Shown in pieces: positions 11,696 to 56,795 of a stretch of 64,000 nt of DNA. Source of the stretch: Halichondria panicea. Its lineage: Eukaryota > Porifera > Demospongiae > Suberitida > Halichondriidae. The stretch is taken from the NCBI RefSeq assembly GCF_963675165.1, contig NC_087381.1:5457378-5521377 (forward strand). Direction: 5' to 3'. Each line of letters starts with the position of its first letter. Position 1 is the stretch's first letter. The position numbers and the translations under genes are program-made. The notes under the pieces are model-generated. The model was not told where the DNA came from. It did no database searches and saw only the letters and a list, made by a program, of their open reading frames with translations.

Positions 11696-12782
11696 CTGGT
11701 GGACCAAAAGTAGAAGAGACGGTCAAATTAGTTGAGTACATGGACAAGTTCTTTGCGCTTTGAACGTTTCTAACTGCGTAGAGGGGGTGCACAAAAGAAA
11801 AGAGTTTCAGTTGCCATATACTTCAGCCGACGACAACCGCCTTACAGTATGTGATAGTAAATATAAAATGTTATGCAAGTTTGATCGCTAATTACAGTGG
11901 CTGGAGAAAGTGTTTCTGCCTTATCTAGAAGACTGGGAGAAGTGGGTAAAATCCATCCCCGACCTCACCACAACAGAACGCAACAATATGCTTCTCAGCT
12001 CAGAGACACGACTAGGATTGAAAATTACATGTGAGGAATATAACAGTGTCTCGTTAGTACTAGCTGGGGGCTGTGTTAGGGTTAATTATTATTATTTTTG
12101 TCACCGATGCTTATCTTTTGCAGGCAAGTGGTTTATTGAACTCGTACACTATCTATTCAAGATACCAGACGTCCAATCCTTCTTAAGCCAAAGAATCTGT
12201 CAAGATCCATTAGAGAATTTCTTTGGGTGCCAAAGACAACGAGGTGGTGTTCATGACATCCCAAATGTTGAAGAATTTACAAAGAACACCCAAGCCCTAC
12301 GAGTCATTAACTCTTTTTGCAAAGGACCAGCTCGTGGGAACTGTATAGAGGTGGTAGTAAACGAAGTTCTACATGACTGTACAGATAGAGAGAACATTAA
12401 TGAACCGTTACCCAAACGCAGAAGACTCAAACTCAAAACATGCTGACTCATTATAAGTATGTACCCAAGGGTGTTAATTGCAATGTCATGGCTACTGTTT
12501 TGATTGCTTATGATGATGATGGATGATGATGAGACATAATTATAATTAATTGAACCCAAAAAACCTCCACCATAAGTTAATCTGAGTCAGAGGCATCTTC
12601 AGGAGTTGGCTGCTGGCAGGGTGTACCTGTAGATCTGGACTTCTCCGTTTTGGCTTTCGGTTTAGAAATTAACTGCTTTCTTACTCCCTTGGATTCTGGG
12701 TAGTCTGTTTCCGAGTGATTTTGAACTTTCAACCCATGCACTTGCCAATGAAAATCCACGAATGTTTACCCAATCTTGGACA
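11696..12782 (+). mobile_element. P-element/THAP9-like transposase fragment
   Basis: The open frame 11910-12446 encodes 178 residues ending in a basic PKRRRLKLK tail. Its second half (QDPLENFFGCQRQRGG, then FTKNTQALRVIN) resembles the C-terminal region of P-element/THAP9-type transposases, where a D-x-L-E-x-F-F-G motif and RGG are typical. A likely intron ends at the acceptor TTTTGCAG around 12124, although the frame reads through. Upstream 11696-11900 encodes further fragments. On the opposite strand 12577-12759 is a short open frame (acidic end EDASDSD) of unknown origin, possibly part of the same element. No terminal repeats found. Family call is from memory of the motif and could be wrong. 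Confidence 0.55.
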
Positions 12783-23790: not shown

Positions 23791-25736
23791 TTTGAGACCA
23801 GCTTCTATTGAAGACTACTTTATACGTACAAGCATGCATCAGTAGTTTGAATTCTATAAATTTTGCTGAAAGAGGATGGACGATTATTTGTGAGAGTACA
23901 GGAATGTAAGCCCTACAATGCTGAGAGGGTTAGCCTGGAAGTATTACAATGTGAAGTCCCTACTTCTTCTGATAGTTAATTAACTCACTTGTGTTGTGCA
24001 TGCTGAATGAAGCTTAGGGCAATGGGCTTTGGTCTCCCCTTGTTTAAGCCCTAATGAAGTGTTTACTTGCGCTTTGCTTGTCCTTCAGGAGAAATTCAGT
24101 TCTGCATAAAATATTAATTTAAACTGTGCAGCATGTTGAGGAACTTACCTAGTTACACAGTTTTGTCAAACAACTCTCAAAGCGTTCTCTAAAAGCTCAA
24201 CTTGTCTGCTTCCTTAAAAACTCCAGCAAATAAATTTTTGTTGATGTGTGCAGCTGCAAATCTGCAGCTGCATAATTGCACGTGCCCTTATTTGGTCATA
24301 GGTCTATTCAACAAACAAGAGCGCGCAAGTGAAGATATGGATATGGCCATGGAAGGAGCTAGCAAGCTAACTAGATCTTCCTATTACAGTTCAATTCAGT
24401 GACAAGGAAAGGCATTTGGCAGTCTTATAATTATTGCTGCTACCAAAGGATAAGGAATAGTAGTGTGTGGATGAATAGTGTTGAATCATGTAGCTTAGAT
24501 ATGGAGCATGTTGATGTCGTGTAACATCTTATAGTAAAAGCATTCCATGAACTGTTTTACTGAGGCAATTATGGTTAACAGTAAGCCGGGTTGCGTGTTG
24601 ACTATGTCTTGGTGACTCAGTTTCTGTAAAATAGACCACTAAATCTAGATCTACCTGGTACGGGTTAGCAGTAAGTCGTGTTGCGTGTTGATCGACCAGG
24701 TACAGAAACCTCTTTTCAAAGATGTTACACAATTAATACATCGCTTCAACTAGTAATTGTATTTGTAAATACGTGTGTGAATCAATTGTTAATTATTTTG
24801 TTTGGTAAAATCTTTTATTATTGTGTACTGGCCTTAATATGAATGCAGATATGCCATTGTAACTGTTCAAGCTAGCAGTAACATTATACGTCTATGGATT
24901 AATAATCTCATGCTTCTCTTTTATTGCAGAATATGGAATGCTGCTCAGGCAAAAAAGCTTAGTGAGATATCAGGGCACCATGGGGCCTCTTTGCAGCCTT
25001 TATATTTAGTCAGCAAACTAGATCCATCAAGCATCTGCCTGAGTTTGTCACTCCCTTAGATTTAACGGCATAATTATTATTGATGCTGATTGCCTTAAAG
25101 TTACAACCAAAGCTTACGTCTGTACCTGTGGGGAGTGGTCGTATTATTTATGTCCCAGTTTGTCATCATTGTTAGGGGAGGAGCAATTGTAGCTATACAA
25201 GAACAATATTAAAATTGTGTACCGCAAGTGTGTTAGGTAAACTTCATGTTGTTTCAAGTTTACAGTCAGTGGTGGATATTAAAAAGACACCATTACATTA
25301 TCGTATAATTATAATTATAGTAAGTAGCCGACCAAACAGTCGTCATGCACTGATATAGAATATTTATAGTCCGTTGTATTCTTCTGACTTGGTCTTCGAC
25401 GGTAGCAGGATAGACCGTAAAAATGACAACTTGTGACTTTCACCATGAAATATTAAAGTATCACATTGCATGCTGCATGCCTATAATTATCTATAAAATA
25501 ATAATTAATGGAGCTTGTGACCTCACACATGAGAAGGTACAGGGAACAGTAAGTTAAGTGAGAGGTACCACTGCATGCACACTGTGATGAAGGACTTAGG
25601 ACAGTACTATAGAGACATGGCGGAGGTTGAATGTAGTGAAGGACTTTGGTAGTGACCGTCACCACAGTTGGTATTGAGCTATGTGGTAGGACTTAGGTAG
25701 TGACCGTCACTGTGATTGGTAGTGAGGATCACCACA

Positions 25737-25966
25737 TACCGTATAGCGCGAAATTTTCGAGGGGCTTAATTTTCGTGGATTTCGTGGGTTAGCAATCCTA
25801 CACGAAAATTAAGTCCACGAAAATCGTTCTTTACCTGCTATAACGTGCAAGATCTAAAGGCGTGGCTTCCGGTAAGCAGTCATTCCGCGAACATTGTGCA
25901 ACGAAATGGCTTTTAGAGGCCAATCCACGAAATATAAGTGCCTCGAAAATTTCGCGCTATACGGTA
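25737..25966. mobile_element. MITE, TACCGTATAGCGCGAAATTT ends
   Basis: 230 bp with long imperfect terminal inverted repeats (left TACCGTATAGCGCGAAATTT, right AAATTTCGCGCTATACGGTA) and a second internal inverted block. It sits within the right subterminal repeats of the CACTG element. A copy in reverse orientation is at 52281-52511. Confidence 0.9.
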
Positions 25967-32218: not shown

Positions 32219-32883
32219 TAGAACAGAACAACGTGCGCGGGAGTTGGATACTCTTCTTAATGAACTCTTATAGCACGCTGATAGCACTGCCTCATGCAAT
32301 TAGTAGCCTTGCCATTGCTTGTTACTAATCCCATAATTATATTGATAGTGTACACAATTTGAAAGTATATAATTATTATATGCAAATTATATGATAGCTC
32401 GCATAAATATAGTATCACTCAGTATAATTTAGCACAATAATACATTTATTTAGTAGATTTTCTTACTGTCTAAAAAGCTCGGATCCCTTTCGCTCTGGAT
32501 GCTCTGGCTGCTCCTCTGGCGTTGTCTGCATTATTATACAGAAAGAAGTTTGTCAGATCGATTCAACAGATGCCCATGAAATGGCTCACCTCCTAGAATC
32601 ATTATGGGGATCCATTTCTATATCTAGATTTATAGATATCTTGCTATATAAATATATTTTGCCTGGCTAATAGCTATAACTGCATGCATACATAAAAACT
32701 TAACTTATAATTATAAGCCGATTTGGGAATGCATTGGTTAAATCTATAACTATTCATAGCATAGCATGCATACCTGTCCAACAGTTCACCTGATTTTGCA
32801 ATCACATGCAGTCTCCTATATAATATATATATATGTATAAAAGAAGATTCACCTCCAGTTAGAATCTACAGCTATAAATTAGC

Positions 32884-35188
32884 ATGGCCTCCAACTCAAA
32901 AAAAGTGATATGTGAGAATGGCTGTGCCAAAGCTACTAGAGTTGCTAAAAAATTTGACCCTTTTCGCTCAACACCTAAGTCAATTGTCACCATTGACTTT
33001 GGAACAACTCATTGTTCTGTATCGTCTCTACTAGACGTCAATGCATGCCCCGACCCTTCTGTACTGGACCCAGTGCTTCTGAATCTTGATACTAAATGTC
33101 GAAAAAGAGTGCCTTCTTGCATTCTCTTTGACAAGTTTGGCGACAGAAAAGGTATTGGATACGAAGCGAGAGAAGAATATGCGACTCTTGGAATGAGAGT
33201 GAGACCAGCATATGCTTTTTTTGAGCATGTTAAGAAGGAAATCCAAAGAAAAGAAGTAAGTCAATTTTTAGCCTTTATAATTATAGTAAAGTTTATGTTT
33301 TGTCACTTTTGTGCCTATAAGCATGCACTTTTAATAGTCATGTATCAACATTGCAATACCTTATATTTTAGGATGTTGATAGAAACCACAAGATCCAAGC
33401 TATGAATGGAAAGCAGTACTTCCTCATTGATGTGATTGCACACATTTTGTGCCACCTAAAGGAGATGATCCTTGAAGAAATTAAGGATGATGGATTTCAT
33501 AGTATAGAAGATGTCGACTGGGTTGTTACTGTTCCTGCAATCTGGAAAGCAAGAGGGAAAAGAATGATGCGGGAGGCTGGATACATGGTATAAATTATTT
33601 GATTGTAACAAGTTAGTTCATGAACAAATTTCTATGGTTATGATTATGAAAGCATGTACCATAGTGCTTGAAAAAAGAATTGCAGAAACCTATATCGGTA
33701 CTGGCATCACAATATCCTTGCCAGATGGCAAAAGTTAGATTGAAAAATTAATTGTCTGCTCATTTTGCACATTCGCAAAGGTTTTCACATAAGTTTTTCA
33801 CAAGTTTCTGTATAATTATGAATAACTTCAGCTGTTGAACGACTTGTATTCTCTTTGTACACATGCAGGCTGGCTTATGTGATCCTCATGTGAAAATGGG
33901 TAACCTGGAAGAAGCTACAGGACGAGTACAACCTCCACCAAAGGAAGAATCTAATCCCGAAAAACTATCGCTTGCTCTTGAGCCAGAATCTGCAGCAATT
34001 TGGTGTAAGAAAAAGATTGATACCGCACAAAGAAATGATGTTGAAACCTATCTGGTTGTGGATTGTGGTGGTGGCACTGTGGACATAGCTACCCATGGAA
34101 TTAGCAATGGTCATGTTCAAGAATTAGCACCTTCGGCAGGTAACATGAGCGGCGGAACAACCATCAATGAAACGTTTCGACACTTTTTAAGTTGTTTTAT
34201 TGGTGATCCGGGTTTCACTCGGTACTTCAGTGTACCTGATCCTGTAAAAAGATCAAAACGGGTGTCAGATATAAACAAAATTGTGTACACAGCCTTTGAA
34301 GAGCAGAAAATAATTTTTGGCAATCAAGAACGGAAAGATAGTTTTGTTGTGGAGTTTACCTATGCTTTCATACAAGATTTTGGCAAGCTGATGGAAGGGA
34401 AGGCAGAAAGTCTTAACCACACAAATGTCCAGATCGAAGAAGATGGGTCAAAAATGAGATTATCTCGTTCAAAAATGGTGGAGTTTTTCAAACCAACTAT
34501 TGATGACATTAGTAAACTGATTTGTGACCACATTCGTGCTAAAGGTTTGGCACCTACACTCGACAAAATTTTTTGGATTGGTGGATTTGGCGGGTGCAGA
34601 TATTTGAGAAGTCAACTTCAAGAAGCTATCAACAATCAGTTTCATACTGAGCTCAAAAGAGAATACGCATGCAGTTGTCCAACTGAGCCGCAGTTAGCCA
34701 TAGTAAAAGGTGCACTGGCGTTTCGGTGTGATCCTAGTGTGATACAAAAACGAAAGGCTGATGCTACGTACGGGATAGCATGCAGTATGCCATTTGTCAA
34801 AGGCAAGCATCGACCAGACTACAGTGTAGATGATGAAGACAACCGTTCTAAAAAGTGGTGTAAAAACATTTTTTCAACGTTTATTGAGAGAGACGAGAGT
34901 ATCTGCACCAATGAAGTTTTTGTAACTAATTATGTCCCACTTTCCAAATCACAGAAGACAATGACGTTAACTTTCTACAGTGCTCTACATCCAAACGTGT
35001 GGTATACGACTGATCGTGGTGTTAATCAACTAGCCAAAATGGTTGTCAATATTGCTGGTTACGGTCGGGATAGGGACGTCGAAGTAGTTTTCGATGTTAC
35101 ACACACTGAGATACAAGTGTGCGTTCGAGACAAGCTGAGCCAAAACGAGTATAAGATTGTTATCGATTTCTTGTTTTCAGAGTTGTAA
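32884..35188 (+). CDS. HSPA12-like atypical Hsp70 family protein
   Basis: Cytosolic actin-fold ATPase of the HSPA12 branch of Hsp70, which lacks the normal peptide-binding C-terminal domain. Three exons in phase 0: 32884-33255, 33372-33587, 33869-35188 (635 residues; human HSPA12A/B are slightly longer). Motifs: phosphate-1 loop TIDFGTTHCSVSS (residues 36-48), VVTVPAIWK in exon 2, EPESAAIWC, phosphate-2 VDCGGGTVDIA (about 259-270), and adenosine-binding IFWIGGFGGCRYL (about 430-442). ATG 32884 gives an N-terminal extension before the ATPase fold and is the first in-frame ATG after an AT-rich region (TATAAAAG at 32835). All junctions are consensus and the frame is open, so the gene looks functional. 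A short copy of its 3' end lies at 37299-37352. Confidence 0.92.
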
Positions 35189-49833: not shown

Positions 49834-49839
49834 TTTATT
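49834..49839 (-). terminator. Putative polyadenylation signal of the NB-ARC gene
   Basis: AATAAA on the minus strand about 36 bases after the stop codon at 49875-49877. Confidence 0.5.
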
Positions 49840-49874: not shown

Positions 49875-52800
49875 CTAATTGTGGAAACTTCTTTTACTTG
49901 TGTATACAAATTGATGAAAATCACTCATAAATAAGCTAATGATGCTGCCAACAAAGTATCTAGCTATAAAGTATAGAGGAATACCAGGAAAAATTAATGA
50001 GCATATAAGATTGTTAAGAAAATTTGCAATCCAAAACGAGTTTTTACATGTTAAATGTATGCATAATAGACACCACTGTTGGTATCTCATTGATCCATTT
50101 CCTTCTAGTGAAAAATATCCAAGAGCGTTAGCTAAAACACCCAAAACATAAAAATTAAGATAAAGAATGCACAAAAAGAAAAGATGAGTAGTGACACACT
50201 TGTTCCAGATATAACCTCTCAAAGCATACAAAATCACAAGTATAAAAATCGTGAAACAAAGCATAACGTAAGATTCAATTGTTTGAATCACTAAAAAAAA
50301 AAATAGAAAGTGTAATAAAGATTGAAATGTGCCAGTCTTTCCCATTTGAATGCGAAAGACAACTGCAGAATACTTTAATGAAAACCAACACTCCAATGAA
50401 AAAAGCAAATACTTCAAAATCTTGACAATGTTATGTGCAAAATTGTTTTGTGAGCAGAAAACATAAGAATTGTCAATTAACTGTAGCAAGTCATCAGTGA
50501 TAAAGTTTATGAGCTTGTCTGGGCCACTAACTGTGTCACAAATTGTACAAGGGAGGTGTGTATAGCCAGTTTCGGTAATGGAGAGCAATAGGTTGGATAT
50601 CAATACTTTGCATACACTCGTGTAAGTCTGAGAGCACGCTTTGTTCAGCAATGTGTTGTTTTCTTCTAAAAATGTCAAGGTGACATCTAGAATAATACTT
50701 GAATGGTTGCTTTCTAAGCCTCCTTGTTGAGAATAAAATAGAAGAACTATTATTTCTTCTGAAGAAAAGTTGTGATCTTTTGTACTTAACAAAATTCTAG
50801 CTAGCTGTCGTATGTTATGCTGTTCGCTAGTGATAAGTTGTTGGTCTTTTTGAGCTGGTTCTTTAATCGACTTTATAGAAGTGAGATAATTATAAAGTTT
50901 CTTTGTATAATACTCTACGAATGTTGTTTTGAAGTCAGATTTCAATACATTTTTTGAATCTATCAAAATCTTCTCCCTAAAATATATTTTTATTAGCTTA
51001 TGCAACTTGTATCTTTCTCCAAAAATGTGAGCGTACCTTTCAAATAGAGAGCGCTCAAAAAGATTTTTGATTTCTTCTTGGAATTCAATGAAAAACGGAA
51101 ACAAAAGAATATCTTCATCAAATGAACCAGGAAACAAAGAAAAAACATATGCAGCTCTTTTGGAGTTGTTGCTGAGATATTGACAAGCAGTGTCCATTAC
51201 AACATTGAACCTCTCACGCCTTGGAAATTGTGGAGAAGATATCGCATCAACATTTTTTGCCTTTAGATCTCGGATTAACATTGTCGGGCTAATTGTTTTG
51301 AGCAGCATAACCGCCACCTTAATTGCCAATGGACAGTTTCCTACGAGTTCAACTATTTCATTCTGTAAGTGATGACTCAAGTTTGGTTGAAGAACACTGA
51401 TTAAGGATTTTGAATCCTTTTCACTTAACTCTAACACTTCAATATCACTAAAGTAGTCTGCAAAAGAAATTTTTAGCTGGCTTGTAATTATGACCTTCAA
51501 ATTATCTTTAGATGACTTTCTCAAATCTAGTATGAACTCTTGGAATTCATCATGCCATTCATTAAGGACTAGATCGCAGTTATCAAAAATCAAAATAGAA
51601 TGTTCTGCAATTGAAGCTGCCCAGTTTAAGAGGTAGTCACCGTTGACAGACCTGCCTAGTAAATGTTTCTCAAAATCGCCGCTGTAACAGTTGTATGTCT
51701 GTACTCCTCTGACAAGTCTTTTCAGGTGAGGTTTTTGCTCAAAGGATAGTTTGAATTCGCTTAGATCAACATAACTTACACCAATTCCCTTTGTACTCAT
51801 GATTTCATGACCAATATGAATAGCCAATGAACTTTTTCCGAAAGCAGGAGGACCAAACAATCCAACTATTGATGTGTGAGTATTAAAGAGATTTTGCATA
51901 ACTGTATATATTAATTCTTTTCTACCAACAAAGGGCTCAGGACGGGAAGGCAATGGTAAACTGATATTTAATAGAGGTGCATCTAGTCTAATATAACTAA
52001 TTTGCTGTACAATTTGCTGTTGTACTTGATCATCACATCTTTCAAACTCATTTTCTAAGAATTGTTGTTGCTGCGGACCAAATCCCTCAAAAATAGTAGT
52101 ACTTTGAGGGTATATTACATATCCGAATCCGATTACAATTGATAGTACGGCGATACACATCACATAGCACTTCTTAGTTCGTAGTCCAAGACAAGATCTG
52201 TACTGTCGTTCAGTTGAGCTTGCAATAACTTCTGTGAAAAATTAAAGCAGGCATACATTTATAATAGACATGTAATGACATACCGTATATAGCGAGAAAT
52301 TTTTGAGGAACTTATATTTTGTGGAATGGCCTCTAAAAGCATTTCGTTACACAACATTCGTGGAATGACTGCTTACTGGAAGCCACGCCTTTAATCTTTG
52401 CACGTTCTATAATCAAAGAACAATTTTCGTTGACTTAATTTTCATTTAGAATTGCTAACACACACAATCAACGAAAAATTAAGCCCCTCGAAAATTTCGC
52501 GCTATACGGTACATATATGCGTAGCTAGGCCAATTAAGTATGTGACAGACTCTGGGAAAATGTAAAGTAACCTCTCAGGAACGGCCACCTGGCCCACCTC
52601 TCTACTCTGTATAACAAGCAGCTTTCTGGTCTAGTCCCCAATCAGCTTTAATAATATCCTATCAGAACGGACAGCCTTTTCAGAGCTTGTATTTGAGCTA
52701 GAGAGGCAATTAGCAAAGCCCCCGCCAAAATTCATTTGCATGCAACAAGAATCATGTGGTTGGCAATTGAAATCTCTCAACAAAGACCATGCATGCCACG

Positions 52801-54619
52801 TACCTCTTTATAATGGCCAAAAGGCTGCTCCTCAATGCACTTATATATTACTATGAGCCCTCTCCTTTTTTGGCAGGCATACATGCTCTGGGTACTTAAG
52901 GCCTGGGTCAGGCACTGATAATAACATTAATTGCCAACATTTAATGTAGATGATGTAGATTATGAGTGTTAATGAGATTCTTAATGTTTATTAATGTTTT
53001 CATTGCAAGTGAAGAAGTCCGTGTCCAAGTAGCCTTCTTCACAAGGCCTCAAAATAAGGAGGCCTGCTACTGACTGCTTGCGCATGCGCAAAATTATTGG
53101 ATAATATTCCCGTAATGTTTTCCATTAAACTGAATTTTTACCCGAATTATATCCTGAATAACATAATTATTATACAGACAAAGAATACTCTTCATAAAGT
53201 CAGACACAGAGCTATATAGCTAGCTAGCTAGAGACAGAACTGTATTGGTTACAGCAGCAATTTCTTTCTGATAGAATTGACTCGACTTTCACCAAGGTTA
53301 GTGTCAGATGGGCGTGGCCTATCCATATAGGCTATTGTCAGCCTTCCCCTCCGTTCAGAGGATTGTTATCCACACTGTTGCAGGCTGTGAGTCCTTTGTT
53401 AACATATTAGGCTAAGGGTAGCTATTAGAATGCTATCACATGGGCTAGAAACCTTCTTCTATCCACTTTCTTCAATCCACTTCTGTTCGTTGTGACGTCG
53501 TTGTTTTACTGAGCAAATACAATGGTATCCGAATTACCCACTTTCTGGGTAATAGGTGGCGCATGCGCAAACAGTCGATACCAGGCCCTCTCTTCGAGGA
53601 GAAGCGGCCTGGGATCGAGGCTAGTGTCCAAGGTACTTGCTTAGCTAGCTGCCTGAACGATTCTCAATATCTTTAGCAACAAATGCGGTGGGCTTACACG
53701 AGGTAAGAGTACTTGTTTAGGCCCTTAAGATAGAGTAGGTTGTCATGATTATGTTTCCAGCTGGGGAAATTAATATGTGCAAAACTGCCTTAGCTATGCT
53801 GGCTTCTTTAGCTCTGACAGCCACTCTAGAGGTAGGCTATGTTGTGTATCTCAAGAATGCAGTAACTTTTACTCTTCCCCAGCTGGATCCTGGTACTTAG
53901 CTACGAGATATTCATCTAGCCTTGTTTTTGAAGCTTTCTTCATGTTCGCATTTGTAGTTCTTCTTACAAAACTGCCATGACGTCATCACTATTTATGGGA
54001 CTAATTAGCATAATTGAATTAAGCTAATTAGTTTTTTGGAAAAAAACATTGAGTTTCATTTTGAGTCATTTTGATGCAGCATACACTGTATATTGCAAAT
54101 AATACAGCAGTATGAACATAGTGTAAATTTTGGTATTTAAGGCTAGACCCGGGCCTTAACTACCCAGAGTGCACAGCCCAGTGGCGTAGGCAGAGGGGGG
54201 CTGATGGGGCCATTATAGATTAGTTAGAAAACTTATTACATACCATCCTTAAATCCTGGCAAAACATCCTTGAGATTGTCGTATTCTTCTCTCATTCGAT
54301 CAACGACTGGTATCAATTCAATGTACTTGCCGCAACAATCGAGGATGGTCTGTAGATTTGAGTTATCAGACTTGATAGACTGTATTATAGCACCAACGAG
54401 CTTTGTAGCCTTATCACTCTCACTGAGCATGACGTGTGTTATGTTGGTACATGTTGCTTGAGAGAATATCTCTGCTTGGAAGAGATCCCAAGCCAATCTT
54501 GTTAACACACCATCATTGAGAACTTCATGAAGCTCACTGGAATGCTTAACAAAGGCCTGCAATTCAAGAGACTTTTTCCTTAGCTTCTTGGCTTTCTTGT
54601 TTGTTGTACGGTGACTCAT
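49875..54619 (-). CDS. CARD-like / transmembrane / NB-ARC / multi-pass membrane protein
   Basis: STAND-type ATPase, probably an innate-immune or cell-death sensor. Exon 1 (54244-54619) ends phase 1 at GGATG/GTATGT; exon 2 (52231 down to 49875) begins phase 1 after TTTTCACAG; joined length 910 residues. Residues ~15-120 look like a helical death-fold domain of CARD type (KKSLELQAFVKHSSELHEVL, LIPVVDRMREEYDNL). Residues ~149-168 are a membrane helix. NB-ARC follows: VGRKEL, P-loop GPPAFGKSS (~252-260), Walker B LIFDNCD (~339-345), KVIITSQ, and GNCPLAIKV (GxP motif), then a winged-helix-like region. The last ~190 residues hold four or five hydrophobic segments; no LRR, TPR or WD repeats are evident. 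The intron is about 2.0 kb and full of MITEs. CARD call is moderate; NB-ARC is firm; the splice joining is inference. Confidence 0.75.
52281..52511. mobile_element. MITE, reverse copy of the 25737-25966 family
   Basis: TACCGTATATAGCGAGAAAT at the left and GAAAATTTCGCGCTATACGG at the right; internal GGAAGCCACGCCTTTA and TTCGTGGAATGACTGCTTAC match the other copy in reverse. Lies in the NB-ARC gene intron. Confidence 0.85.
52560..52700. repeat. Dispersed repeat, AACCTCTCAGGAACGGCCA family
   Basis: Shares CTCTCAGGAACGGCCA, GTATAACAAGCAG-like and GAACGGACAGCC with 37585-37690; a linked upstream part (GAAAGGACCTTTCT...GAAGAGCAACCACACGCTAT) occurs at 37470-37570 and 41560-41660. Confidence 0.7.
53024..53630. 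mobile_element. Relative of the 17769-18362 element
   Basis: Left AGTAGCCTTCTTCACAAGGC with GGCCTGCTACTGACTGCTTG and GCGCATGCGC; right GCGCATGCGCAAACAGTCGA, CCAGGCC and GGGATCGAGGCTAG. Similar length (about 600 bp) and order. No coding content. Confidence 0.6.
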
Positions 54620-55070: not shown

Positions 55071-56795
55071 TTATGGGTCCACTTCTGTCACTTTGGGTTT
55101 GTTAGGATTGTTGTCCAGCAACCATTGAGCCAGCCAGGTCTGCAAGGGAATAAGTGGCGTGAATGATGCAGATATAAGCAAAATACAATTTTGAACCTTT
55201 ACATGATTATACGCTTATGTAGGTGGATAGTTGGTTAGGGTAGCTAGCAATTGCATACAAATTGTCCTCAAAATGGAGCAGGGGATGGGCAGTACAGATT
55301 CACACATGAAAATAGCCGTACGTCACGTGTACCATTCAACTGATTATTTCCATCATATAATTTTAATGATTGTACGTACCAGTGGATCTTCTGGTTTTTG
55401 CTTGGACAGATGTGTGAGAGCCTTGGTGAGGACAGGGTTCACTTTGCTCTGGAGATAGTCAGTTGCATCTTGGCCGTGGTAGATGGGCTCTGTGATTGCT
55501 GCAGACAAAGAGATAATACATGTATTCATGCGTAAATTCTAGAAACGAAGGTACCTATTCATTACTGTATATACGTACACTAAAATAATGTTTGAACCTT
55601 CAGAAACGATAATTTCATATCGCAAACTCTAACTAAATGCAGAAAATTGAGTAGCCCTTACATTCTGAGAACATGAATCTGATCTCTCTCTCAGCCGTAT
55701 GGTAGCTATCACTGCCGTGCAGTCCATTTCTTGTTTGATCATGCCCGTACTTTGCCCTGAGTGAGTCGGGAGCTTCCTGCTTGGCTCTGACTGCATTCGT
55801 GGGTCCCAGCAGATCCCTCCACTCTTGAATAGCATCACGCTTGGCCAGAACCAGTGCTATGATGTCAGCACTGCAAGGAATACAAGGTTTTATACCAATG
55901 ACATGTTGGCAAATATTATAAGGCCCGTCCGGTGCGTGTAACTTAGTACTCTAAGAGTTTACCAAAAAGGTACATGCAAACACTTCATGGAAAATACTAC
56001 AGATATTTGAGCCATCACACATTTTTGATCTACATGTACACACCACCGAGATACTGTATGCTCCTCAGAGCTACTAAATATATCTTGCGAGATTAAACCA
56101 TCATACCTTTGCATGTAAGCGATGAGACTTGGGAAGAACATTTTGCCATAGTGCTCAGCATAGAAGTCAGAGGCCTGTTCTGGAGTCAGCCTCAACCTGC
56201 GTTGCTGTGATGAGAGAGAAAGATTTGGTGATTGCAAAAGGGCATGCAACAAATACACTCTACTGCATCTTTACAGGTTCTAGAGATTACATAATAAATT
56301 ATTACAGAGGAAAAAACTGCCACCCTGAAGATAGGCCAACCAAAAATTTCCCCAAGGTGTCCGTTCTCTACTAGACTGTAAGTTACCTGAATATGCACAT
56401 GTAGAGGTACATGTACTGACCATCCTGGGCAGTACAATGAATTTAACATACATTTTTTAACTACAGGTGAGCATAATTTATCTAAATTTCAGTGTTCCAC
56501 AATCCGGCCTGTTCGCTACATGTACGTACATACAGGGTATGTACATCGACTCAGACGTCTGCAAGAGTAATCGTACTTGTATGAATGTGAATGTGAAAAA
56601 ATAAAGTTATAAGGTGCATTTTCAGAAATTTATTTATTTACGAGCTCTACAACTCACATTTAGAATGGAAAATTCCAAACTTTTGATGTCCTCCATAACC
56701 TCATCTGCTCTGTGCACTGCATCAGGTTTGATAATAGCCAGAGTTCTCTCCACAGTTACAACAGGAGGGTCGGGGAAAATTGGAGTGTCTTCCAT
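55071..56795 (-). CDS. NME5: NME5, nucleoside diphosphate kinase homolog 5
   Basis: Ciliary/flagellar (radial spoke) protein with an NDK-like domain and a C-terminal Dpy-30 motif. Five exons with continuous phases: 56658-56795, 56107-56204, 55662-55870, 55380-55498, 55071-55139; 210 residues, like the ~212 of human NME5. Seen: VERTLAIIKPDAV at the NDK start, QRRLRLTPEQASDFY, GKMFFPSLIAYM, LLGPTNAVRAK..PDSLRAKYG, NGLHGSDSYHTAEREIRFMF with the conserved His, then DYLQSKVNPVL and WLAQWLLDNNPNKPK of the Dpy-30 motif. ATG 56795 (MEDTPIF) is the first Met of the frame. Head to head with CSDE1. Confidence 0.96.

Follow-up and report, generated by a model that had tools for sequence, protein, structure and literature searches.

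Apaf-1 follows the plan CARD, NB-ARC, WD40, with the WD40 propeller at its C-terminus, whereas the bacterial STAND proteins of the AfsR and FxSxx-TPR kind bear other effector parts and TPRs. Both Apaf-1 and the NLRs are regarded as sensors that are soluble. Here we analyse a 64,000-nucleotide stretch of the demosponge Halichondria panicea (NCBI RefSeq GCF_963675165.1, contig NC_087381.1, positions 5,457,378 to 5,521,377 of the forward strand, or C5:5457378-5521377; hereafter the window), which carries a gene for a putative STAND protein with a predicted membrane helix between a CARD-like N-terminus and the NB-ARC domain, and with further predicted membrane segments at its C-terminus.

Related proteins were compared through parts of four articles (PMC12909245, PMC8260672, PMC6321704, PMC8195603). 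In the parts compared, a sponge is described as having CARD- and DEATH-NACHT-LRR genes (PMC12909245), the repeats of placozoan NACHT/NB-ARC genes are given as WD40 or TPR only (PMC6321704), and DED-TRADD-N modules preceded by a membrane helix, in some cases together with STAND, are described for Crassostrea virginica (PMC8195603).

Gene model

The window gene lies on the minus strand and consists of two exons (54619-54244 and 52231-49875) that, joined in phase 1, would give a product of 910 amino acids. Open frames of 135 codons (54643-54236) and 788 codons (52241-49875), both on the minus strand, were found where an earlier note made from the sequence alone had placed them. The features of the gene model are:

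54244..54619, minus strand: exon 1, a death-fold-like module (ATG at 54619, open for 125 codons and one further base)
52232..54243, minus strand: phase-1 intron, GT..AG, 2012 bases (paralogue alignment ends at 54236 and 52233)
49875..52231, minus strand: exon 2 (784 codons with a TAG stop, after two bases that complete the split codon)
49834..49839, minus strand: AATAAA resembling a poly(A) signal, some 35 bases past the stop, read from the sequence

A search of the 131.5-Mb assembly (39 contigs) revealed a paralogue (locus L014, here B, the window gene being A) in inverted orientation about 310 kb away, with exon 1 at C5:5194571-5194946 and exon 2 at 5196493-5198840. The exons stand in the same order in both copies, with the donor G|GTACGT in B for G|GTATGT in A and the acceptor TTTAG in B for CACAG in A. 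The two exons share 91% and 90% DNA identity in blocks that run 8 bases beyond the donor on one side and up to the acceptor AG on the other, and the encoded proteins are 89% (exon 1) and 86% (exon 2) identical, B being full-length without stops. The introns are unrelated, their sole common part at E<=1e-5 being a piece of dispersed repeat 74 columns long. Because the exons of B align up to the splice sites while the introns are unrelated, and given an equally placed phase-1 intron in seven loci (see below), the junction 54244/52231 proposed in the earlier note is strongly supported, and on this comparative evidence the predicted gene is a two-exon gene. The repeat piece in the window intron spans 52437-52510, and a similar 74-column piece lies elsewhere within the intron of B; the repeat sequence CGCGAAATTTTCGAGGGGCTTAATTTT occurs at 52475-52501 and again at 25747-25773, with none expected by chance.

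A STAND NTPase domain

The motifs by which STAND/NB-ARC proteins are known, namely the P-loop, Walker B, GxP and a winged helix with a conserved His, were all recovered in exon 2 through motifs and profile matches:

50982..51956, minus strand: NB-ARC and winged helix, ending RYKLHKLIKIY (profile match to Apaf-1 119-469 and AfsR)
51828..51854, minus strand: Walker A (P-loop) GPPAFGKSS, in which G, P, P, K and S are invariant in eight aligned members
51573..51596, minus strand: Walker B ILIFDNCD, in which DNCD is invariant in eight aligned members

The P-loop GPPAFGKSS and the Walker B motif singled out in the earlier note are present, the latter as ILIFDNCD, and so are GNCPLA and RYKLHKLI. The note's claim of a full NB-ARC is supported by a PDB profile search with the NB-ARC parts of eight paralogues, which matched AfsR (E 1e-9), Apaf-1 residues 119-469 (E 3e-9), a span covering the nucleotide-binding domain and winged helix, and, at E 7e-7 at best, plant NRC proteins. 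The NCBIfam model FxSxx_TPR matched exon 2 alone at E 4.6e-7, with 28.7 bits against a model cut-off of 300. In the Pfam scan the window protein fell below the NB-ARC cut-off, which was exceeded only at two related loci, L019 and L022; L019 also exceeded the Pfam cut-offs for NACHT, AAA_16, NPHP3_N, nSTAND3 and AAA. Since the relatives match several Pfam P-loop families at once, assignment to the Apaf-1/AfsR class rests on the PDB profile match. On these sequence matches the predicted product is a STAND NTPase of this class. The P-loop varies among relatives, with Glu for the last Gly in L020 (GPPAFEKS) and GSPGFGKS in L021, which stands outside the eight-member alignment.

A family of at least ten loci with a predicted helix before the P-loop

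Exon 2 gave 11 matches in the genome at ten loci, the window included (A, B and L015-L022), and such counts are lower bounds (at least ten). With L022 as query, nine of the ten came back and no further locus; L019 as query found all ten, a 31-residue match on C2 and, further removed, a NACHT-type frame on C17. Membrane segments were scored by a free-energy (dG) scan on the Hessa scale, with an approximate length term and lengths of 19-23 residues, which in the window protein gave:

52110..52172, minus strand: predicted transmembrane helix 1 (TM1), protein 146-166, dG -1.1, with a counterpart in 10/10 loci
50334..50909, minus strand: about 190 amino acids after the winged helix without detectable repeats (no meaningful Pfam match)
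50274..50330, minus strand: marginal membrane segment, protein 760-778, dG 0.96
50205..50273, minus strand: predicted membrane segment, protein 779-801, dG -2.6
50130..50198, minus strand: predicted membrane segment, protein 804-826, dG -0.7

At all ten loci a hydrophobic helix begins 60-107 residues before the P-loop, and no more than 1% of the 200 random segments of NB-ARC composition drawn for each locus were that hydrophobic (the composition of the window protein being used for L015 and L021). TM1 has diverged strongly in sequence between A and B with hydrophobicity kept in both; when 31 random changes were made to TM1, dG<=0 was kept in 10% of 1000 runs and the value of B was reached in 1.3%. 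The possibility that TM1 is a soluble helical repeat misread as a membrane helix is rejected on its presence at every locus and its diverged sequence. Among other P-loop frames, the same stretch holds no helix in L029, L030 or L031 and does hold one in L028, the NACHT-type frame on C17. There (L028:1018-3306, C17:1269953 region) a helix of dG -1.4 stands just before the P-loop of a frame with a Pfam NB-ARC match, and its strand also carries a sub-threshold CARD match some 4.5 kb upstream; the NACHT-type label was given by eye. Judging from this frame, a helix-before-STAND plan may have arisen also in another STAND lineage.

The C-terminal region contains one to five segments at dG<1 in nine of the ten loci and none in the frame of L022; those of L015, L020 and L021 sit in a second frame piece. 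The NB-ARC/winged-helix core holds none of the 23 membrane segments in the seven proteins counted. The 'four or five' C-terminal segments of the earlier note were a generous count, the dG scan giving two strong, one marginal and one weak (protein 875-895, dG 2.9), whereas its membrane helix and membrane C-terminus find support, as predictions, in the recurrence of this plan among distant paralogues. Shuffled sequences matched the window protein in 1/200 cases for three segments at dG<0, in 1/200 for four at dG<1 and in 28/200 for four at dG<2; a plain Kyte-Doolittle count did not stand out (nine runs, where shuffles averaged 5.3 and reached 14). A soluble helical repeat at the C-terminus is made unlikely by the recurrence of membrane segments in 9/10 loci. 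Taken together, these predictions indicate that the same domain plan is repeated across the ten loci.

No WD40, LRR or NACHT match was found in the window protein by Pfam scan, so that the absence of a repeat sensor noted earlier holds for this gene. It does not extend to the family, given that sub-cut-off TPR matches lie between the NB-ARC and the C-terminal segments of L021 (TPR_12, E 1e-4) and L019 (TPR_7, E 0.01), and the family is therefore not defined by a lack of repeats. These matches hint that a repeat region once stood, or still stands, between the NB-ARC and the membrane segments. When the middle region of the window protein was compared with the TPR-bearing stretch of L019 and L021, the match was non-significant (probability 0.9%, 52 columns), and homology between them was set aside.

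The CARD-like exon

CARDs belong to the death-fold superfamily, with a six-helix Greek-key fold. The region concerned is:

54299..54562, minus strand: CARD-like region, about residues 20-107 (hhalign of seven N-terminal exons to 17 CARDs)

Upstream frames resembling window exon 1 were chosen by eye, giving a death-fold-like upstream exon at 8/10 loci (A, B, L015 and L017-L021); none was found for L016 or L022 within 4.5 kb among frames of at least 60 amino acids. With donor and acceptor likewise picked by eye, the junction is in phase 1 in all seven loci computed (A, B, L015, L017, L018, L020 and L021), with introns of 153-2012 bases; L019 was left out because several acceptors are possible. 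The exon of L021 contains a Pfam CARD match (24.3 bits, cut-off 23.9); when the eight exons were scanned, a single one matched CARD (E 2.1e-5), which by its position is that of L021. Further upstream, this locus has in addition a weak match to Death (E 0.046). Without L021, a profile of the seven other exons aligned to 17 of the genome's 48 CARD matches with a probability of 92% (82 columns, score 42.0), whereas single exons other than L021 reached 0.3-23%. Of 100 column-shuffles run as a control, one scored 128.3 (probability 99.6%), above the observed value, and the next largest 7.5; the former is a program artefact, a one-column output without alignment.

The connection to the window runs in two steps: the exons of A and B match those of five relatives (probability 78%, score 34.7, with 60 shuffles reaching at most 15.8), and the five relatives' exons match CARD (92.6%, score 40.5, with 60 shuffles reaching at most 13.3). 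The CARD identity is thus transitive, because the window exon matches paralogue exons and the paralogue exons match CARD; the identity proposed in the earlier note is supported by way of these relatives and not for the window exon directly. When L021 was included, a PDB search brought up CARDs, with BCL10 first (E 0.018). A 23-residue match to exon 1 at 24972-25037 (E 0.1) was put down to chance by inspection. On a count by exons, the genome has 48 CARD matches, of which 43 exceed the cut-off, along with 33 for the caspase domain, and possible partners for a CARD platform may be found among them. The presence of caspase, CARD and NB-ARC matches suits an animal genome.

Selection and probable gene conversion

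Nei-Gojobori counting with a Fisher test gave a ratio of nonsynonymous to synonymous rates (dN/dS) of 0.43 between A and B over 900 codons (p 2.4e-9) and of 0.24 for exon 1 alone (p 1.6e-4), which indicates that the window gene and B are together under purifying selection. Synonymous divergence (dS) is uneven, at about 0.04 in residues 570-911, about 0.24 in exon 1 and the NB-ARC and 0.54 in the linker that includes TM1. In their 3' part (49875-50909 in the window) A and B are thus near-identical, and in their 5' part they have diverged (dS about 0.04 against about 0.24). A likely explanation of the low 3' values is gene conversion between the two copies, which are inverted and some 310 kb apart.

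Proposed mechanism and alternatives

We propose that the product is an integral-membrane STAND switch in which a CARD-like region, a helix, an NB-ARC with winged helix, a middle region and a membrane C-terminus follow one another, and that it serves to cluster CARDs; on the sequence evidence we consider this proposal evenly poised between right and wrong. Either the middle region or the membrane-embedded C-terminus would read a condition at or in the membrane, nucleotide exchange would let the NB-ARC parts assemble within the membrane plane, and assembly would gather the CARDs, which could nucleate CARD assembly and draw in caspases or adaptors that bear a CARD. The receptor for a membrane signal suggested in the earlier note is likewise conjecture. 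Overall this would amount to an apoptosome-like switch tied to the membrane.

A single helix between CARD and NB-ARC would put the two on opposite sides of the membrane, a point that the earlier note did not raise. Lys and Arg within 20 residues of TM1, summed over ten loci, number 31 before and 16 after the helix, and net charge favours the CARD side inside in 7/10 loci (not in L015, L019 and L021). A cytosolic CARD side is most likely, and the C-terminal charge rule gave no decision on topology. A transmembrane receptor with the ATPase in a non-cytosolic place (the lumen of the endoplasmic reticulum or another compartment) and the CARD in the cytosol, in which ATPase assembly clusters CARDs across the membrane, is a version that we put forward tentatively and regard as rather improbable; it would be an IRE1-like arrangement made of Apaf-1 parts.

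Several observations weigh against the proposed switch or its topology. A cytosolic CARD would place the ATPase on the non-cytosolic side, and we know of no STAND ATPases there. N-glycosylation sequons on the ATPase part occur at chance (35 against 35.8 expected in eight proteins; 4 against 5.1 in the CARD exons) and therefore lend no support to a lumenal ATPase. At the sensor-1-like position, where STAND/NB-ARC proteins have the Arg of the TTR motif, 1/10 loci has Arg (L019), eight have Gln and one has Cys (L021), with which an alignment of eight members agrees; as this residue is mostly replaced, nucleotide handling may differ. Window exon 1 alone has no Pfam CARD match and aligns to CARD by hhalign with a probability of 0.4%, the exons of A and B together reach 1% (score 14.4, equalled by 1/60 shuffles), and without L021 the best CARD in the PDB search, ICEBERG, has an E of 0.3, below unrelated matches. 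For three parts of the protein considered singly, dN<dS falls short of significance (p 0.13 for the linker that includes TM1, 0.24 for the middle region and 0.13 for the C-terminus), and given the low C-terminal dS, the C-terminus of B is no independent witness of that of A.

Two alternatives change what the membrane parts do, and we consider each of them unlikely. The C-terminal segments could be the output of the protein, with STAND assembly driving them to open or break the membrane. Fungal HeLo and plant RPW8/CC domains act on membranes from the N-terminus. Membrane segments end the protein in 9/10 loci, their number varying from one to five at dG<1, and the window gene has no visible sensor repeat, both in keeping with such an effector; however, the segments sit at the end where STAND proteins usually have sensors, and a family that also has a CARD-like output domain would then combine CARD and pore, that is, two outputs.

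Equally unlikely in our estimation is a cytosolic Apaf-1-like protein held at the membrane, with TM1 as a re-entrant hairpin or monotopic anchor and with CARD and ATPase both cytosolic. This would remove the problem of opposite sides and fits the modest charge bias of TM1 and the chance level of sequons, but the best TM1 segments are strongly hydrophobic stretches of 19-23 residues (the only lengths scanned), a length that suits a single crossing.

Very improbable is a second product, in which exon 2 is made alone from a Met at the start of TM1 as a STAND protein without CARD, the CARD-joined form being minor or absent: the window gene has an ATG there (CYVMCIAVLS), yet B lacks this Met, selection acts on exon 1, and at seven loci a phase-1 intron links an exon of this kind to the frame downstream. 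That the gene is a decaying or non-functional copy is scarcely credible, since A and B are both open and together under purifying selection, even though L015 carries an in-frame TGA and L020 has lost the last Gly of the P-loop to Glu.

The proposed membrane switch, if true, would mean that an animal has joined death signalling directly to membranes, with CARD and ATPase either side of a helix, and whether STAND ATPases can function beyond the cytosol could, with this family, be put to a defined test.

Other features of the window

The gene upstream of the window gene was copied along with it (85.7% identity to the copy near B). It lies on the same strand, with its tail at 55071-55500 ending PKVTEVDP, and its product resembles a DPY30-motif protein. 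The remaining features are:

33839-35188: Hsp70-like frame, Pfam HSP70 E 8e-4, under cut-off
32878-33405: possible first exon of the Hsp70-like frame, with no Pfam match
11892-12446: transposase-like fragment with a TNP-like RNase H C-terminal domain, 23.6 against a cut-off of 24 bits
43668-44672: long minisatellite, both strands open, with repeats FCTVTMVDLYLTQIPVV and QPSLQCKTLQGFVLGKD

Comparison with known systems

With Apaf-1 the window protein shares a CARD-like N-terminus and an NB-ARC with winged helix that matches residues 119-469 (E 3e-9), and it differs in the helix between CARD and NB-ARC, in having no WD40 match and in its predicted membrane C-terminus. Other NB-ARC exons in the genome, on C13 and C3, have CARD matches nearby and were taken by eye to be Apaf-1-like. 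With AfsR and the FxSxx-TPR bacterial STAND proteins it shares NB-ARC and winged-helix sequence; no prokaryotic or viral relatives were confirmed in scans with six, six and one peptide patterns, which are weak negatives. The NLRs of sponges, cnidarians and placozoans (NACHT-LRR, or NACHT/NB-ARC with TPR or WD40) are alike in joining a death fold to a STAND plan, whereas the window protein has no LRR match and is predicted to be membrane-embedded; in Pfam terms it lacks the NACHT plus LRR of a strict NLR.

No description of this architecture was found among titles and abstract openings, taken without supplements, a weak negative. The DED-TRADD-N proteins of C. virginica come near in that a membrane helix occurs in a death-fold protein possibly with STAND, but in the parts of the article compared the intracellular module as a whole follows the helix and an extracellular Cys-rich domain (PMC8195603), whereas in the window protein the helix splits the CARD from the ATPase and the C-terminus is predicted to be membrane-embedded. 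The predicted NTPase and, by way of its relatives, the CARD are of known kinds; it is the order of the parts that was not found within this literature.

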